From the NCBI RefSeq assembly GCF_004145845.1, contig NZ_SELP01000003.1:496001-560000 (forward strand): DNA of 64,000 nucleotides, in the 5' to 3' direction. The position numbers were made by a program, and so were the translations under genes. Numbering within the stretch: the stretch's first letter is position 1; every line of letters begins with the position of its first letter. Of this stretch, positions 24,623 through 30,440 are shown piece by piece. Source of the stretch: Loktanella sp. IMCC34160 (GTDB taxonomy: Bacteria; Pseudomonadota; Alphaproteobacteria; Rhodobacterales; Rhodobacteraceae). The notes beneath the pieces were generated by a model, which made no database searches, had not been told where the DNA came from, and was given only the letters and a program-made list of their open reading frames with translations.

Positions 24623-24973
24623 TCAGGTAAATTCAATCCTGTTGCAGAAGGGATCGTCGGTGAAGAACCGCCGGCGATCTGTCAGGGCCGTATCCCACCT
24701 GACCTCATGCCCCTCCACGACAAGCCTTCTGGCGATGTCGTCAAGGTCAGGCACCCGGAAACAGGGATGCGCCTTGCGCGCGGGGCTAAACGGTTCTTCC
24801 ACGCCAAGGTGCAGTTCGACCTCTCCCGCCCGCAGCCAAAGCCCACCGCGACCGGCCAAGGCTTCGGGTTTCGGAAGCTCTGTCATGCCAAGGATACCGA
24901 CCCAGAAGGCGCGCGCGTCGTCCTCGCCGCCCTTGGGGATGGCAAGCTGAGTGTGATCGTAGGTCCAGCTCAT
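24623..24973 (-). CDS. VOC family (glyoxalase/bleomycin-resistance fold) protein
   Basis: A 116-residue single vicinal-oxygen-chelate domain. The opening DHTQLAIPKG strand supplies the first metal histidine, a short helix follows (ARAFWVGILGM), then VELHLGV in the middle, HPCFRVPDLDDIARRL, and the closing RRFFTDDPFCNRIEFT. The histidine and terminal glutamate positions fit the usual metal site. Its ATG overlaps the metallophosphoesterase stop by 4 bp (24970-24973), so the pair is co-translated. Substrate unknown; lactoylglutathione lyase is not implied. Confidence 0.82.
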   Translation of the reverse strand: MSWTYDHTQLAIPKGGEDDARAFWVGILGMTELPKPEALAGRGGLWLRAGEVELHLGVEEPFSPARKAHPCFRVPDLDDIARRLVVEGHEVRWDTALTDRRRFFTDDPFCNRIEFT

Positions 24974-25719
24974 TCCGCGCTGGGCCACAGAAGGGATCGG
25001 CCAGCTTCGTGAACCGTGTGCCAGTCGCTGCCGTCGAAATGAACGGGCACCAACGGACGGCCATAGCCCGCCCCGCCGTCGATGTTGATCCGGTTGCCAT
25101 GGTGGGCCGGGTGATCCAGCGCCGTGTGACCATGCACGACCATGCTGCCATGATCGCGCGTATCCTCCAGCCATCCGTTGCGAATCCAGATCAGGTCGTC
25201 TTCCTCCTGATCGGCCATCTCGATACCTGGGCGAATGCCCGCATGGACAAAGATTGCCGCCTCGGCCCGGTGCCACAGCGGGCGGCTTTCCAGAAAATCG
25301 AGGTGGGTTTCGGGGACCTTGGCGCGAGCCTCTTTCGCGATCTCCTCGACAAGGCCGGGGTCGCGGATTTCGGCGTCGGTATCGGGCAGGGTCACCCCGT
25401 AGGACCGCAGTGTATCGCGGCCACCCAGAGCGGGGTGGAGCCAGCCCTTGCCCGACGCGATCTGCGGGTCGTCGATGACCCCGTCGCGGACAAAGCGGGT
25501 GAACATCCGGTCGTGGTTGCCCCGCAGCACGGTCCAGTTCCGGCCCGCCTCAACGCCGGCGATCAAGGCGTCGATCACGCCGCGCGTGTCCGGGCCACGG
25601 TCGGTGTAATCGCCGACAAAGACCACCTCTGCCCCGGTGCCGCCATCCGCACCAATCAGCGCAAGCGCCCGGTCCATCTGAGTCTTCTGTCCGTGGATGT
25701 CGCCGATTGCATAGATCAT
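24970..25719 (-). CDS. Serine/threonine-phosphatase-type metallophosphoesterase
   Basis: A 249-residue cytoplasmic calcineurin-like phosphoesterase. It shows the dinuclear metal motifs in order: GDIHGQ near residue 6, GDYTDRGPDT near 36, RGNHDRM near 68, and VHAG near 155 with a C-terminal VHGHTALD near 205. The closest characterised relatives are bacterial PP1/PP2A-like and diadenosine tetraphosphatase-type enzymes. ATG 25719 follows AAAGGCGGG. It leads a two-gene operon with the VOC protein. Confidence 0.85.
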   Translation of the reverse strand: MIYAIGDIHGQKTQMDRALALIGADGGTGAEVVFVGDYTDRGPDTRGVIDALIAGVEAGRNWTVLRGNHDRMFTRFVRDGVIDDPQIASGKGWLHPALGGRDTLRSYGVTLPDTDAEIRDPGLVEEIAKEARAKVPETHLDFLESRPLWHRAEAAIFVHAGIRPGIEMADQEEDDLIWIRNGWLEDTRDHGSMVVHGHTALDHPAHHGNRINIDGGAGYGRPLVPVHFDGSDWHTVHEAGRSLLWPSAE

Positions 25720-25801
25720 TGGGCCCGCCTTTCCGGGCCGCAATAGCACGGGGCGGAGAGCGGGGGAACGGCGCCCGGATCAAGGCAGCCTTGCAGCCAG
25801 A

Positions 25802-26413
25802 TCAGGCCTGCGCCTCGACCTGCGGGTCCGGCAGGAACCGGTAGGAATGGGTGTTGATGTCACCGCTCCACCGCCACAGGGCGACAAAGCCTTCGGGGCC
25901 GGTGCGGAACGCGTGCGGCATCAGGGATGGATGGTGAATCATGTCCCCCGCGGGCCGGTGCCGCGTGTCGTCGCCCGCCGTCCAAATCGCCGACCCGGCA
26001 AGGATGACATAGGTTTCATCCGCGTCGTGATTGTGCAGGCCGTAGTAGCTGTTCGGCGCCATATAGACGAGGCCGAGCCGGTGATCGGGGCAAGGAATCG
26101 GGCCCTCTGGCCCCATCAGCGTCGCGACAGCGATGATGGCGGCGGCTGTAACGGTCATCCGATCTTCGACCGGGTTCACGCTCCAGTCGATCAGGTCATG
26201 GGCGGCAAGCGCGGCCCGCGCGGCCGGATGGTCCGACCCGGCCAGACAGGTCCGGATGCCCAGGTCAAAGGCACAGGCTGACGGGGTGACGGGCATGTCG
26301 ATGGCAGTCTGGGTCAGCGCGTCGGCGGCAGCGGCGCCTTCCGAACGCCCTTCGGCGCGGTAGACGGCGGCAAGCTCGTCCAGAAGGGCGGTGAATCGGG
26401 GTTGATAGGCCAT
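25802..26413 (-). CDS. DMSP-lyase-family cupin (DddQ/DddL-like)
   Basis: A 203-residue cupin of the dimethylsulfoniopropionate lyase type, which cleaves DMSP to dimethyl sulfide and acrylate. The metal-binding cupin motif 1 reads YYGLHNHDADETYVILAG (H127, H129, E133) and motif 2 HHPSLMPHAFRT (H167). The spacing, the APNSYY lead-in and the HHPS-MPHA block match the DddQ/DddL group rather than ordinary cupins, and length fits DddQ (about 200). No dddP, acrylate-use or CoA-pathway gene is beside it. Activity is inferred; non-DMSP members of the fold exist. Confidence 0.68.
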   Translation of the reverse strand: MAYQPRFTALLDELAAVYRAEGRSEGAAAADALTQTAIDMPVTPSACAFDLGIRTCLAGSDHPAARAALAAHDLIDWSVNPVEDRMTVTAAAIIAVATLMGPEGPIPCPDHRLGLVYMAPNSYYGLHNHDADETYVILAGSAIWTAGDDTRHRPAGDMIHHPSLMPHAFRTGPEGFVALWRWSGDINTHSYRFLPDPQVEAQA

Positions 26414-26514
26414 GTCGCCCTCCGGCAGGTCAATGCCTGAGGGTCGCGCGAGCGGGCAGCGCGGTCTGACACTGTCACGACATCAGCGGGTCGAAAACGG
26501 GTCGCCTGAAAACG

Positions 26515-26541
26515 ACACGAGCCGCCCGGTCTGGGCGGCTC
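26515..26541 (-). terminator. Probable intrinsic terminator of serA
   Basis: Perfect 9-bp GC-rich arms (26519-26527, 26533-26541) enclose a 5-nt loop 20 nt past the serA stop. On the minus strand the stem is followed by GTGTCGTTTTC, an imperfect U-run. Confidence 0.55.
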
Positions 26542-26561
26542 GGTCAAGGGTCTGGGATGGA

Positions 26562-28157
26562 TCAGGCCACGTCGAAGGTCAGCGGCTTGATCTGTCGGAA
26601 CATGCCGGTTGCCTCCAGCTTGGCAATGACCGGGGCCGGCACCGGATCGTCGACATAAAGAAGCGCGATAGCCTCGCCATTCCGGGCGGCGCGGCCAAGG
26701 GTAAAGTTGGCGATGTTGACGCCATTTTCGCCCATGGTCTGGCCAAGCGTGCCGATGATGCCCGGCACGTCCTCGTTGGTGGTGTAAAGCATGTTCGCAC
26801 CGACCTCGGCATCAATGTTGATGCCCTTGATCTGGATAAAGCGCGGCTTGCCATCGCTGAATACGGTGCCCGCGATGGAGCGTTCCCGCTCGGCCGTGAC
26901 GACCGTGACCTTCACATAGCCTTCGAAGGCGCCGGACTGGTCCTGCTTGGTCGTGGAAATCTGGACGCCGCGTTCCTTGGCCATGACCGGGGCCGATACC
27001 ATGTTCGTGTCCGGGTTCGTCTTCTTCATGATCCCGGCGATGGTCGCGGCGGTCAGGGCCTTGAGGTTCATCTCGGAAGCTTCACCGTCAAACAGGATGT
27101 TGATCGCCTTGATCGGCTCGTCCGTCATCTGGCCGATGAAGTTGCCCAGATGGCCCGAGAGCTTGATCCAGGGGCCCATGACCTTGGCCTCTTCGGCGGT
27201 GACGGAGGGCATGTTCAGCGCGTTTTGCACCGCGCCCGTCAGCAGGTAGTCGGCCATCTGCTCGGCGACCTGAAGGGCGACGTTTTCCTGCGCTTCGGTC
27301 GTGGCCGCGCCAAGGTGCGGGGTGCAAACCACGTTGGGCAGGTTGAACAGCGGGTTTTGCTTGGCCGGTTCCTCGGCAAAGACGTCGAAGGCGGCGGCGG
27401 CGACATGGCCGGACTTCAGCAGGTCGGCAAGGGCGGCTTCGTCTACCAGACCGCCACGGGCGCAGTTGATGACGCGAACGCCCTTCTTGGTCTTTTCAAG
27501 GTTCTCGCGGCTGAGGATGTTGCGGGTCTGATCGGTCAGCGGCACATGCAGGGTGATGAAGTCGGCCCGCTTCAGCAGCTCTTCCAGATCCACCTTCTCC
27601 ACGCCGATTTCGGTGGCGCGCTCTTCGGACAGGAAGGGGTCGTAGGCGACGACCTTCATTTTCAGGCCAAGGGCGCGGTTGCAGACGATCGACCCGATGT
27701 TACCTGCGCCGATCACGCCAAGGGTCTTGCCGGTCAGTTCGACCCCCATGAACTTCGACTTTTCCCATTTGCCCGCATGAGTCGAGGCGCTGGCCTCGGG
27801 GATCTGGCGGGCGGCGGCGAACATCATTGCGATGGCATGTTCGGCGGTGGTGATCATGTTGCCGAAGGGGGTGTTCATCACGATGATCCCCTTCTTCGAA
27901 GCCTCGGGAATGTCGACGTTGTCGACCCCGATCCCGGCCCGGCCAATGACCTTGAGGTTGTCGGCGGCGGCGATGATCTTTTCGGTCACCTTTGTGGCCG
28001 AACGGATGGCAAGGCCGTCATATTGGCCGATGACTTCAAGAAGCTTGTCCTTGTCCTTGCCAAGTTCAGGCTGGAAATCCACCTCGATGCCGCGATCGCG
28101 GAAGATCTGGACGGCGGCTTCGGACAGCTTGTCGGAAATAAGTACGCGGGGGGCCAT
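26562..28157 (-). CDS. serA: D-3-phosphoglycerate dehydrogenase
   Basis: A 531-residue enzyme catalysing the first step of serine synthesis, 3-phosphoglycerate to 3-phosphohydroxypyruvate with NAD+. The NAD-binding GAGNIGSIV lies near residue 147, the catalytic arginine in NCARGGLVDE near 233, and the histidine in PHLGAATTEAQ near 285. An intervening ASB-like domain and a C-terminal ACT domain (about 455-531) mark the long class. ATG 28157 follows AAAGGACC, so the upstream Met at 28172 is rejected. It lies downstream of serC on the same strand. Confidence 0.95.
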   Translation of the reverse strand: MAPRVLISDKLSEAAVQIFRDRGIEVDFQPELGKDKDKLLEVIGQYDGLAIRSATKVTEKIIAAADNLKVIGRAGIGVDNVDIPEASKKGIIVMNTPFGNMITTAEHAIAMMFAAARQIPEASASTHAGKWEKSKFMGVELTGKTLGVIGAGNIGSIVCNRALGLKMKVVAYDPFLSEERATEIGVEKVDLEELLKRADFITLHVPLTDQTRNILSRENLEKTKKGVRVINCARGGLVDEAALADLLKSGHVAAAAFDVFAEEPAKQNPLFNLPNVVCTPHLGAATTEAQENVALQVAEQMADYLLTGAVQNALNMPSVTAEEAKVMGPWIKLSGHLGNFIGQMTDEPIKAINILFDGEASEMNLKALTAATIAGIMKKTNPDTNMVSAPVMAKERGVQISTTKQDQSGAFEGYVKVTVVTAERERSIAGTVFSDGKPRFIQIKGINIDAEVGANMLYTTNEDVPGIIGTLGQTMGENGVNIANFTLGRAARNGEAIALLYVDDPVPAPVIAKLEATGMFRQIKPLTFDVA

Positions 28158-28180
28158 GTCTGGTCCTTTCATTGGGCGGG

Positions 28181-28248: not shown

Positions 28249-29403
28249 TCATGCAGCGTCGGACTGCGCTTCGATCTCGGCGGCAAAGGCCCATTCGAGC
28301 CAGGGCAGCATCGCCTCGATATCGGCGGTTTCCACGGTGGCACCGCACCAGATCCGCAGTCCGGCGGGGGCGTCGCGGTAGGCACCGATATCCAACGCGA
28401 TGTTTTCCGCCTCCAGCCGCTTGGCAACCGCCTTGGCAAAGGCCGCACCATCGGTGATCCGGTCGTCGGTGAACTTCAGGCAGACGCTGGTGTTGGACCG
28501 GGTGGCCTTGTCATTGGCAAGGTTGGCGATCCAGTCGCGGCTGGCGCAGAAATTCCAGACGGCGCGGGCGTTCGCATCGGCCCGGTGGATCAAGGCGTCC
28601 AGCCCGCCGATGGACTTGGCCCATTTCAGCGCGAACAGGTAATCCTCGACTGCCAGCATCGACGGGGTGTTGATGGTCTCACCCCGGAAGATGCCTTCGA
28701 TCAGCTTGCCGCCCTTGGTCATGCGGAAAATCTTGGGCATCGGCCAAGCGGGGGTATAGCTTTCCAGCCGTTCGACCGCGCGGGGGCTGAGGATCAGCAT
28801 ACCGTGGGCCGCTTCACCGCCCATGACCTTCTGCCAGGAGAAGGTCACCACATCCAGCTTGTCCCAGGGCAGATCCTGCGCAAAGGCGGCGCTGGTCGCG
28901 TCGCAGATGGTCAGGCCCTTGCGGTCCGACGGGATGACTTCGCCCGACGGCACACGCACGCCCGAGGTGGTGCCGTTCCAGGTGAAGACCACATCGTTGT
29001 CGTAGTTGAGCGACGACATATCGACGATATCGCCATAGTCGGCGGTGTGGGCGGTTGCCTCGATCTTGAGCTGCTTGACCACATCGGTGACCCAGCCAGC
29101 CCCAAAACTTTCCCAAGCGACCATTTCCACGGGCCGCTCGCCCAAGAGCGACCACATCGCCATTTCGACGGCGCCTGTGTCAGAGGCAGGAACGATGCCG
29201 ATCCGGTAGTCGGAGGGAACCCCAAGGATTTCGGCGGTCAGGTCGATCGCCTCTTTCAGCTTGGCCTTGCCGACGGCGGCACGGTGCGACCGGCCCAGCG
29301 GTGCGTCGCCAAGCGCGGCAAGATTCCATGTGGGGGGTTTGGCACAGGGGCCAGAAGAAAAGCGCGGATTTTCCGGGCGCGCAGCCGGTTTGGTCAAAGC
29401 CAT
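28249..29403 (-). CDS. serC: Phosphoserine aminotransferase
   Basis: A 384-residue PLP enzyme converting 3-phosphohydroxypyruvate to O-phosphoserine. The N-terminal [10 protein letters not shown] block, PLP lysine in [10 protein letters not shown] near residue 197 and C-terminal GLRIWCG mark the longer alphaproteobacterial SerC branch. ATG 29403 is preceded by GAGGG held in a hairpin loop (see leader). serA follows on the same strand after the tandem palindromes, so serC-serA is probably one transcript. Confidence 0.94.
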
Positions 29404-29446
29404 TATCTGATACCCTCTCAGATATTCGCCCCTCGTTGGGGAGGGG
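29404..29446 (-). promoter_or_regulatory. serC leader-like RNA structure
   Basis: On the minus strand two stems precede serC. The distal one pairs 29446-29441 with 29434-29429 (CCCCUC/GAGGGG). The proximal one pairs AUCUGA (29423-29418) with UCAGAU (29410-29405) and holds the Shine-Dalgarno GAGGG in its 7-nt loop, ending one nucleotide before the ATG. A terminal stem overlapping the serC ribosome binding site is the stated feature of the alphaproteobacterial serC leader motif. The match is by structure only, not by covariance model. Confidence 0.55.
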
Positions 29447-29588
29447 TGTCCCAAGGCCGGAGATACGGGGGGCAGAGGTCTTTCACAACGGGCAAAATGC
29501 CGCTAGACCGCCGGTTGAGGCGCGAAAAGCGACCCTTGGCGACTACGATCGGAAACTTGCATCCGCATTCGGGAAGGCGGGACACGGC

Positions 29589-30440
29589 GTGAACTGGGTG
29601 TTGAAAAAACTGACCGAGTCGCTGTCGGACCCGTTCCGGGAGATTCCGCAAAAGCCCGACTACCGCGCCCAGGTCCTTGCCATGCCTGCGCCGGAACGCC
29701 GCTATGCCATGTTCTTTACGCCGCGCAGTGGATCGTCACGTCTGACGGAACTTGCGGATCAGACAAAGGTGCTTGGCCGGCCGGGCGAAATTTTCAACCC
29801 CGCCCTCCTTCCCAAGATCGCGGTGCACTATGGCGCGCAGAGTATGGGCGACTACATTGACCTTCTGTGCCGGGCCCGGAATCACGATGGGACATTCGGG
29901 TGCCAGATTACCTATTCCCAGATCCTGTCGCGGTTCCGCACAGGGCATAGGTTCCTCGACGCGGTGGAACCCACCCACGTCATATGGCTGTACCGCGAAG
30001 ATATCGTTGCGCAGGCGGTGTCGATCAGCCGGATGCGGCAGACCCGGTTGGGGCACGCGACTGCGGCGACCGCGGCGATCGAAGCCGATGCGGAGGCACG
30101 ATTTGTCTACGACCCGCGTGCGATCCGGCGGATCATCCGGTTTCTGCGCTGGATGGAGACCCGGACCGAGGCGCTGTTTCGTCGGGAAGGGCTGCAACCG
30201 CTGCGGCTGAGCTATGAACAGAGTATCGCCCACCCGCCGATGGCTGTCCTTGCGGCAATGGCCGGGCATCTGGGGGTTGATCTGGACCCCGGCGTCGAAA
30301 TCGTCGAAAAGCACCGGAAACTGTCCGGCAGCAAGGGGCGCAGTTTCGCCGAGCAATTCCGGGCCGAAAACGCCGATTTTGTCGCTCGCATAGAACAACA
30401 GCGGGCCCCGATGCTTGCGCGCCTGACCGACTTGGGCTGA
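29589..30440 (+). CDS. Stf0-type sulfotransferase family protein
   Basis: A 283-residue cytoplasmic sulfotransferase-like protein. The PAPS 5'-phosphosulfate loop reads FFTPRSGSSRLTEL near residue 42, followed by GRPGEIFNP as in Stf0 (trehalose 2-sulfotransferase), and the 3'-phosphate-binding region near residue 130 has WLYREDIVAQAVS. A GTG start at 29589 is chosen because GGGAAGGCGGG lies upstream at suitable spacing; no closer ATG precedes the conserved loop. It sits between divergent serC and serB, which starts 12 nt after its stop. Acceptor unknown. Confidence 0.75.
   Translation: MNWVLKKLTESLSDPFREIPQKPDYRAQVLAMPAPERRYAMFFTPRSGSSRLTELADQTKVLGRPGEIFNPALLPKIAVHYGAQSMGDYIDLLCRARNHDGTFGCQITYSQILSRFRTGHRFLDAVEPTHVIWLYREDIVAQAVSISRMRQTRLGHATAATAAIEADAEARFVYDPRAIRRIIRFLRWMETRTEALFRREGLQPLRLSYEQSIAHPPMAVLAAMAGHLGVDLDPGVEIVEKHRKLSGSKGRSFAEQFRAENADFVARIEQQRAPMLARLTDLG

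Follow-up and report, generated by a model that had tools for sequence, protein, structure and literature searches.

Dimethyl sulfide is a climate gas that is released by bacterial DMSP-cleaving enzymes. Several of these enzymes are cupins, namely DddL, DddQ, DddW, DddK, DddY and DddU, and the DMSP lyase family, by the title of the study of Lei et al. in 2018, is said to hold true lyases and also enzymes of unknown function. In DddQ of R. lacuscaerulensis, the residues Y120, H123, H125, E129, Y131 and H163 are reported to be essential (PMC4437653). In R. sphaeroides, acuR, acuI and dddL are described as an operon, and the same 2012 survey is reported to place acuI near dddQ or dddW in no bacterium (PMC3338564). 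The cupin lyase DddU was described in 2023 (cited in PMC10686828), and a criterion used for its assignment is at least 40% identity across 70% of a ratified DddU (PMC13310141).

The window, the whole stretch of 64,000 nucleotides of Loktanella sp. IMCC34160, carries a lyase-like cupin gene on its (-) strand at 25802..26413 (stop included), encoding a protein of 203 aa termed P0001, as supported by the list of open reading frames, PF16867, the alignment and dN/dS. The open reading frame spans 25802-26413 exactly, so that its coordinates were retained, and starts with an ATG, 5 bases upstream of which a GGAGG sequence resembling a ribosome-binding site can be read (26419..26423, (-)). A Pfam profile search matched P0001 to PF16867 (DMSP_lyase) with 69.8 bits at a cut-off of 27 (E 2.9e-19), while none of the NCBIfam models matched it. 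No other match in this genome exceeds the PF16867 cut-off; the second one reached 20 bits and falls below it. From genome contigs, 32 related loci were found, of which 30 were aligned after the fragments L033 and L034 had been left out; their products share 51-70% identity with P0001. Five pairs gave dN values of 0.24-0.37 and dS values of 0.85-1.87. As silent change far exceeds protein change, and in view of the aligned relatives and the PF16867 match, the gene is real and under selection.

The initial annotation had proposed a DMSP lyase because of the cupin residues H127, H129, E133 and H167 and an HHPS-MPHA block. All of these are present in P0001, the block forming residues 160-168, and Y124, Y135 and W182 occur in addition. 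In the alignment columns, cupin motif 1 (residues 124-140; 25994..26044, (-)) comprises Y124, H127, H129, E133, Y135 and G140, each of which is conserved in at least 90% of rows in the P0001 subfamily, in DddQ and in the group that we term DddL-like. Aligned cupin motif 2 (residues 156-167, GDMIHHPSLMPH; 25913..25948, (-)) ends on the putative metal ligand H167. The alignment further places W182 of the W180-R181-W182 stretch (25868..25876, (-)) at W178 of DddQ, and W180 at a position that is mostly V176 there. The six residues essential in DddQ, Y120, H123, H125, E129, Y131 and H163, correspond to Y124, H127, H129, E133, Y135 and H167, and the two tyrosines among them are retained in 43 and 44 of the 44 subfamily rows. 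However, this likeness does not identify a DMSP lyase, because the key residues are common to the PF16867 family: all six are retained in 153 of 168 rows and all seven, including the Trp, in 141 of 168. Ten of the 15 rows departing from the six-residue set belong to one sister group, here called 'ext'. Across 44 subfamily, 36 DddQ and 31 DddL-like rows, nine columns are alike at 90% or more, namely the seven residues, W77 and G140. An assignment of P0001 to DddQ or DddL based on residues was therefore rejected.

Other positions set P0001 apart from the lyase groups. One case is P81 (26171..26173, (-)), which in the alignment columns replaces a Tyr found in 36/36 DddQ and 31/31 DddL-like rows; Pro occupies the position in 43 of 44 subfamily rows. 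The same Tyr is found in the majority of rows in five of six other groups but is absent from the sister group (0/12) and from the L035 group (0/9), so that its exchange for Pro, while speaking against a lyase, is not decisive. Compared to DddQ, Tyr77 is changed to Pro, Phe140 to Trp (position 144 of P0001), Val176 to Trp and Arg179 to Ser; at position 180 of P0001, the DddL-like group has Tyr. With this latter group P0001 shares membership in PF16867 and the nine columns, and at DddQ positions 176 and 110 both have an aromatic residue and Gly, respectively. Members of the L035 group (L035, L036, L038, L040, L042, L060 and L101) reach high Pfam scores and lack the Trp of DddQ position 178, which is Leu in 7/9 and a gap in 2/9 rows.

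The AlphaFold2 model of P0001 (pLDDT 92.7, pTM 0.90) found its best structural matches in five DddQ entries, both by Foldseek (E 1.5e-14 to 3.1e-12) and by Z-score comparison (Z 20.3-21.8 over 180-191 aligned residues, with an rmsd of 2.6-3.3). In contrast, DddY reached Z 13.6, DddK Z 11.8 and unrelated cupins at most 11.9. P0001 is thus predicted to adopt a DddQ-type fold along its whole chain. The part of the annotation that placed P0001 in a family holding DMSP lyases is borne out by this modelled fold, the PF16867 score and the complete DddQ catalytic set. With the DddQ proteins of R. pomeroyi (5cu1) and R. lacuscaerulensis (4la2) and with RnDddQII (4b29), P0001 has in common the modelled whole-chain fold (Z 20-22), the six essential residues and W178, its size and the stand-alone position of its gene. 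The structural matches, in which the DddQ entries are clearly the best, also bear on the possibility that P0001, as a metal cupin, catalyses a different type of reaction, for example as an isomerase or as an oxidase or decarboxylase that needs oxygen and acts on a small thiol or amino acid. An analogy would be SbzM, a cupin with Fe or Ni that is reported to convert L-cysteine to 2-sulfamoylacetic aldehyde (PMC6331615), and one relative (L020) lies, by eye only, beside a gene resembling PLP-dependent desulfhydrases and a TauE-like exporter gene. However, the retention of the tyrosines required in DddQ and the varying gene neighbours among relatives argue against such chemistry as well, and we regard it as unlikely.

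Phylogenetic placement was determined with a FastTree tree of 168 sequences and, for 74 of those rows, a more careful tree. The lyase groups in the comparison were the DddQ and DddL-like clades, with DddW, DddK, DddY and DddU left out of the trees; the three PDB rows are sequence fragments. Groups were named after the first tree had been seen and before the AU tests, and seven of the 168 rows fall outside any named group. As at least 11 PF16867 places (G125, G179, G211, G234, G223, G136, G241:C35, G082:C8:402106, G090:C12 and two of G175) were omitted, clade sizes are lower bounds. The name DddL-like we inferred from AcuI, which lies within about 2 kb of 6/31 members and beside no other tested group.

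The subfamily of P0001 formed one clade in both trees (support 99/97 in the careful one), joined with the sister 'ext' rows at 100/99, and both the DddQ clade (100/99) and the DddL-like clade (100/99) stood apart from it in the free trees. A forced union of the subfamily with DddQ was rejected (p-AU 5.0e-6). The union with the DddL-like group cost 21.8 log units and was not rejected (p-AU 0.079). P0001 scored 298 bits against the profile of its own subfamily, from which it had been left out, and 176 bits against that of the sister group, but 58-64 bits for DddQ and 40 bits for the DddL-like group; members of these two groups score at least 198 bits with their own profiles, those of the DddL-like group at least 277. 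Apart from the subfamily and its sister group, none of the other eight group profiles gave more than 73 bits. Identity to DddQ is only 18-30%. P0001 as a DddQ was therefore rejected, as it lies in a clade separate from 5cu1, 4la2 and 4b29. The phylogeny that the annotation had called for hence placed P0001, among the two lyase groups compared, outside DddQ altogether and outside the DddL-like group in the free trees only. Likewise, the label 'DddQ/DddL-like' holds for the DddQ-like fold and residues, but not for the DddQ clade, and the free trees and the profile speak against its second half, for which the union was not rejected (p-AU 0.08). Judged from trees and profiles, P0001 lies in its own well-supported Rhodobacteraceae subfamily of PF16867 and has earned neither the name DddQ nor the name DddL. 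As it occupies its own branch of the family, its substrate is not set by kinship, and either label would be unfit.

The subfamily is present in 24 of the 394 Rhodobacteraceae genera sampled; this set of 24 genomes is the part of 37 matches with E <= 1e-45, a line that was drawn to fit the clade. Its sister group 'ext' (12 Rhodobacteraceae rows, among them L158, L169, L173, L094 and L170) likewise lacks the lyase-group Tyr, but differs in its gene neighbours and in the replacement of H127 by Arg in 10/12 rows and of Y135 by Phe or Met in 5/12; by these residues, 'ext' appears to have a changed metal site. Elsewhere in PF16867, tandem gene pairs occur at L124, L128, L153 and L164, and at L124, L128 and L164 the two copies group with different DddQ proteins, one with 4la2/4b29 and one with 5cu1.

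Within the window, serC, serA, the P0001 gene and a metallophosphoesterase gene follow each other in this order, all on the (-) strand. The upstream neighbour, serA (26562..28172, (-)), encodes phosphoglycerate dehydrogenase (TIGR01327, 671 bits, cut-off 454), and the calcineurin-like metallophosphoesterase gene (24970..25749, (-); PF00149) follows 52 bases downstream. A Stf0-type sulfotransferase gene (PF09037) is located at 29301-30440, between serB and serC. The gene thus stands alone and outside a ddd cluster, as had been annotated, its nearest neighbours from serB to the phosphoesterase gene being neither acrylate-use nor DMSP transport genes. As the P0001 gene follows serC-serA on the same strand, a part in serine synthesis was considered. 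In favour of this reading, 23 of 45 subfamily loci, reaching into the deepest branch, have serA as the immediate upstream gene. The phosphatase gene is present in 21 of these 23. However, among 30 serA control loci, the most similar of 77 serA matches in 80 genomes, 25 have no P0001-type gene within about 1.5 kb. In 15 of these 25 the phosphatase gene directly follows serA (64-146 bases from the aligned ends), in four it lies farther away, and in six it was not seen, one of these being at a contig end. Since serA and the phosphatase gene adjoin even without the P0001 gene, the neighbours tell little about its function. In addition, serA does not precede the gene in the other 22 subfamily loci, 21 of which have at least 3 kb of sequence on that side. 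What is conserved is the genomic place as such, and not a partnership with serA.

Between serA and the P0001 gene, the hairpin scan identified a terminator-like hairpin (26518..26542, (-)) with 10 pairs, nine of them G-C, and a T-rich tail, although the scan of the region gave four terminator-like sites compared to 4.0 in shuffles and hence no excess. A hairpin after serA occurs in 14 of 24 serA-bearing loci including this one, while seven have none, one has a weak one and two were unscored; no shuffle control accompanies these counts. The hairpin suggests that the P0001 gene may be transcribed separately from serC-serA. The serine-operon reading was rejected by the serA control, and the hairpin lowers its likelihood further, leaving a role of P0001 in serine synthesis highly improbable.

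Loci without serA provided no common theme from which a function of the subfamily could be derived, and a neighbour-based function was rejected. Their neighbours are mixed and include TruB with a BCCT transporter, a MYG1-type protein, a Rieske oxygenase with GcvT, ornithine cyclodeaminase and GNAT; in another relative a tRNA-synthetase-like neighbour gene was identified by eye. Around 63 loci (45 of the subfamily and 18 of its kin), no AcuI was found within flanks of up to 5-8 kb, 16 loci having a flank under 5 kb on one side. The same scan gave one weak DmdA match (32%), of the GcvT type and beside a Rieske oxygenase gene (L009), and one BCCT transporter (L018). P0001 and its kin thus differ from dddL of R. 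sphaeroides with its acuR-acuI neighbours, a trait that is not universal for dddL. As acuI is generally not near dddQ or dddW either, its absence from the vicinity is no argument for or against a lyase.

Some members and relatives are carried by plasmids. A conjugative plasmid from Sulfitobacter sp. SK012 carries a subfamily member (L175:7917-8546). A PF16867 relative on a Sinorhizobium meliloti plasmid (L176:5671-6339) shares a cluster with a gene annotated as hutH, LysR regulators and an ABC transporter; this setting may indicate that an amino-acid-like compound, and not DMSP, is taken up and degraded. Another, on a plasmid of Gemmobacter fulvus (L177:5620-6303), is located near genes for a CaiB-type CoA-transferase, enoyl-CoA hydratases, an AMP-binding protein and an ABC transporter, possibly a catabolic cluster.

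The annotation had further stated that acrylate-use and transporter genes were missing next to the gene. This is correct for the neighbourhood, consisting of serB, the sulfotransferase gene, serC, serA and the phosphoesterase gene, but not for the genome, as dmdA, acuI and a BCCT transporter gene are located on another contig, C10 (L268:7042-11265), and DddP is encoded about 16 kb beyond them (L277:1447-2898). DmdA (NF009133, 562 bits, cut-off 410), AcuI (TIGR02823, 428 bits, cut-off 297) and DddP (NF043017, 902 bits, cut-off 600) all exceeded their cut-offs, AcuI falling below that of the narrower NF051456. The BCCT transporter matched PF02028 but scored below the cut-off for each named NCBIfam transporter model; a plasmid search with a piece of its gene returned one weak record. 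DddP, a DMSP lyase by sequence, is of the M24 family and unrelated to P0001. The host also encodes a protein very close to the ectoine hydrolase DoeA (L273).

Co-occurrence with DmdA and DddP was compared by Fisher tests, which ignore kinship, with group counts covering retrieved places only. DmdA was found in 13 of 24 subfamily genomes and in 177 of 394 overall (p 0.40). The DddQ groups, in contrast, were linked with DmdA (14/16 and 14/17, compared to 111/248; p 0.0004 and 0.0017). The DddL-like group showed no such link (9/30, p 0.12), and a missing DmdA link therefore does not exclude a lyase. DddP occurred in 19 of 24 subfamily genomes compared to 218 of 394 (p 0.019). When the cut-off was made stricter, as gauged against the host genome's own DddP, the numbers were 18/24 compared to 148/394 (p 0.00015). 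The corresponding numbers were 16/16 and 16/17 for the DddQ groups (14/16 and 16/17 at the stricter cut-off) and 16/30 for DddL-like genomes. The DddP co-occurrence speaks for some link of the subfamily with marine DMSP users.

These findings have to be weighed with regard to P0001 being a stand-alone DMSP or DMSOP lyase that works alongside DddP, either as a cupin type additional to DddL, DddQ, DddW, DddK, DddY and DddU or as DddU or its close kin. The complete DddQ catalytic set makes DMSP cleavage chemically plausible, and the DddQ-like predicted fold, the dmdA-acuI genes, BCCT transporter and DddP of the host, the enrichment of DddP among subfamily genomes and the BCCT transporter gene adjoining the relative L018 are all in line with it. 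So are the distance of known dddQ and dddW from acuI, as recorded in the survey (PMC3338564), and the union with the DddL-like group that was not rejected. Against it stand the placement in a separate clade, apart from DddQ and, where the trees were unconstrained, from the DddL-like group, the Pro in place of the lyase-group Tyr and the lack of a link with DmdA. A weak argument, also as a pointer to DddU hosts, is that the G+C content of subfamily loci is 51.5-70.5%, whereas AT-rich sampled genomes (37-40%) carry other PF16867 groups. On balance, we consider such a lyase possible, though less likely than not.

The annotation had left room for a paralogue with another substrate, and this option is slightly favoured here. 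Accordingly phrased, our reading, held with evenly balanced confidence, is that P0001, a mono-cupin of its own PF16867 subfamily, most likely acts in a DddQ-like manner and that its main substrate is more likely a related small metabolite than DMSP. As every residue reported to be necessary in DddQ is retained, it probably shares the DddQ mechanism, depending on a metal and a tyrosine. A divalent metal would be held by H127, H129, E133 and H167 and would bind a small carboxylate substrate; Y135, aided by Y124, may then abstract a proton from the carbon adjoining the carboxylate, and the leaving group on the next carbon would be expelled in an elimination reaction. With confidence just short of an even balance, we propose that the subfamily represents a new type of enzyme, a metal- and tyrosine-dependent lyase of an undescribed substrate that may be a sulfonium or betaine compound related to DMSP. 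No described function for the subfamily was found in the open-access literature; Lei et al. 2018 or the authors of the DddU work may have tested members.

The placement of P0001 also has consequences for the reading of such genes in sequence data. Key-residue checks are reported to have been used in curating DMSP-cycle enzymes from metagenomes (PMC8520302), and public plasmid records label genes of the family 'dimethylsulfonioproprionate lyase family protein' or 'dimethylsulfoniopropionate lyase'. With six residues kept in 153 of 168 rows, which span many groups of PF16867, key residues alone cannot part DddQ from its sister branches, and where such genes are counted as DMSP lyases, the potential for DMS production could be overstated. 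The subfamily would be either a further source of DMS or a new activity.
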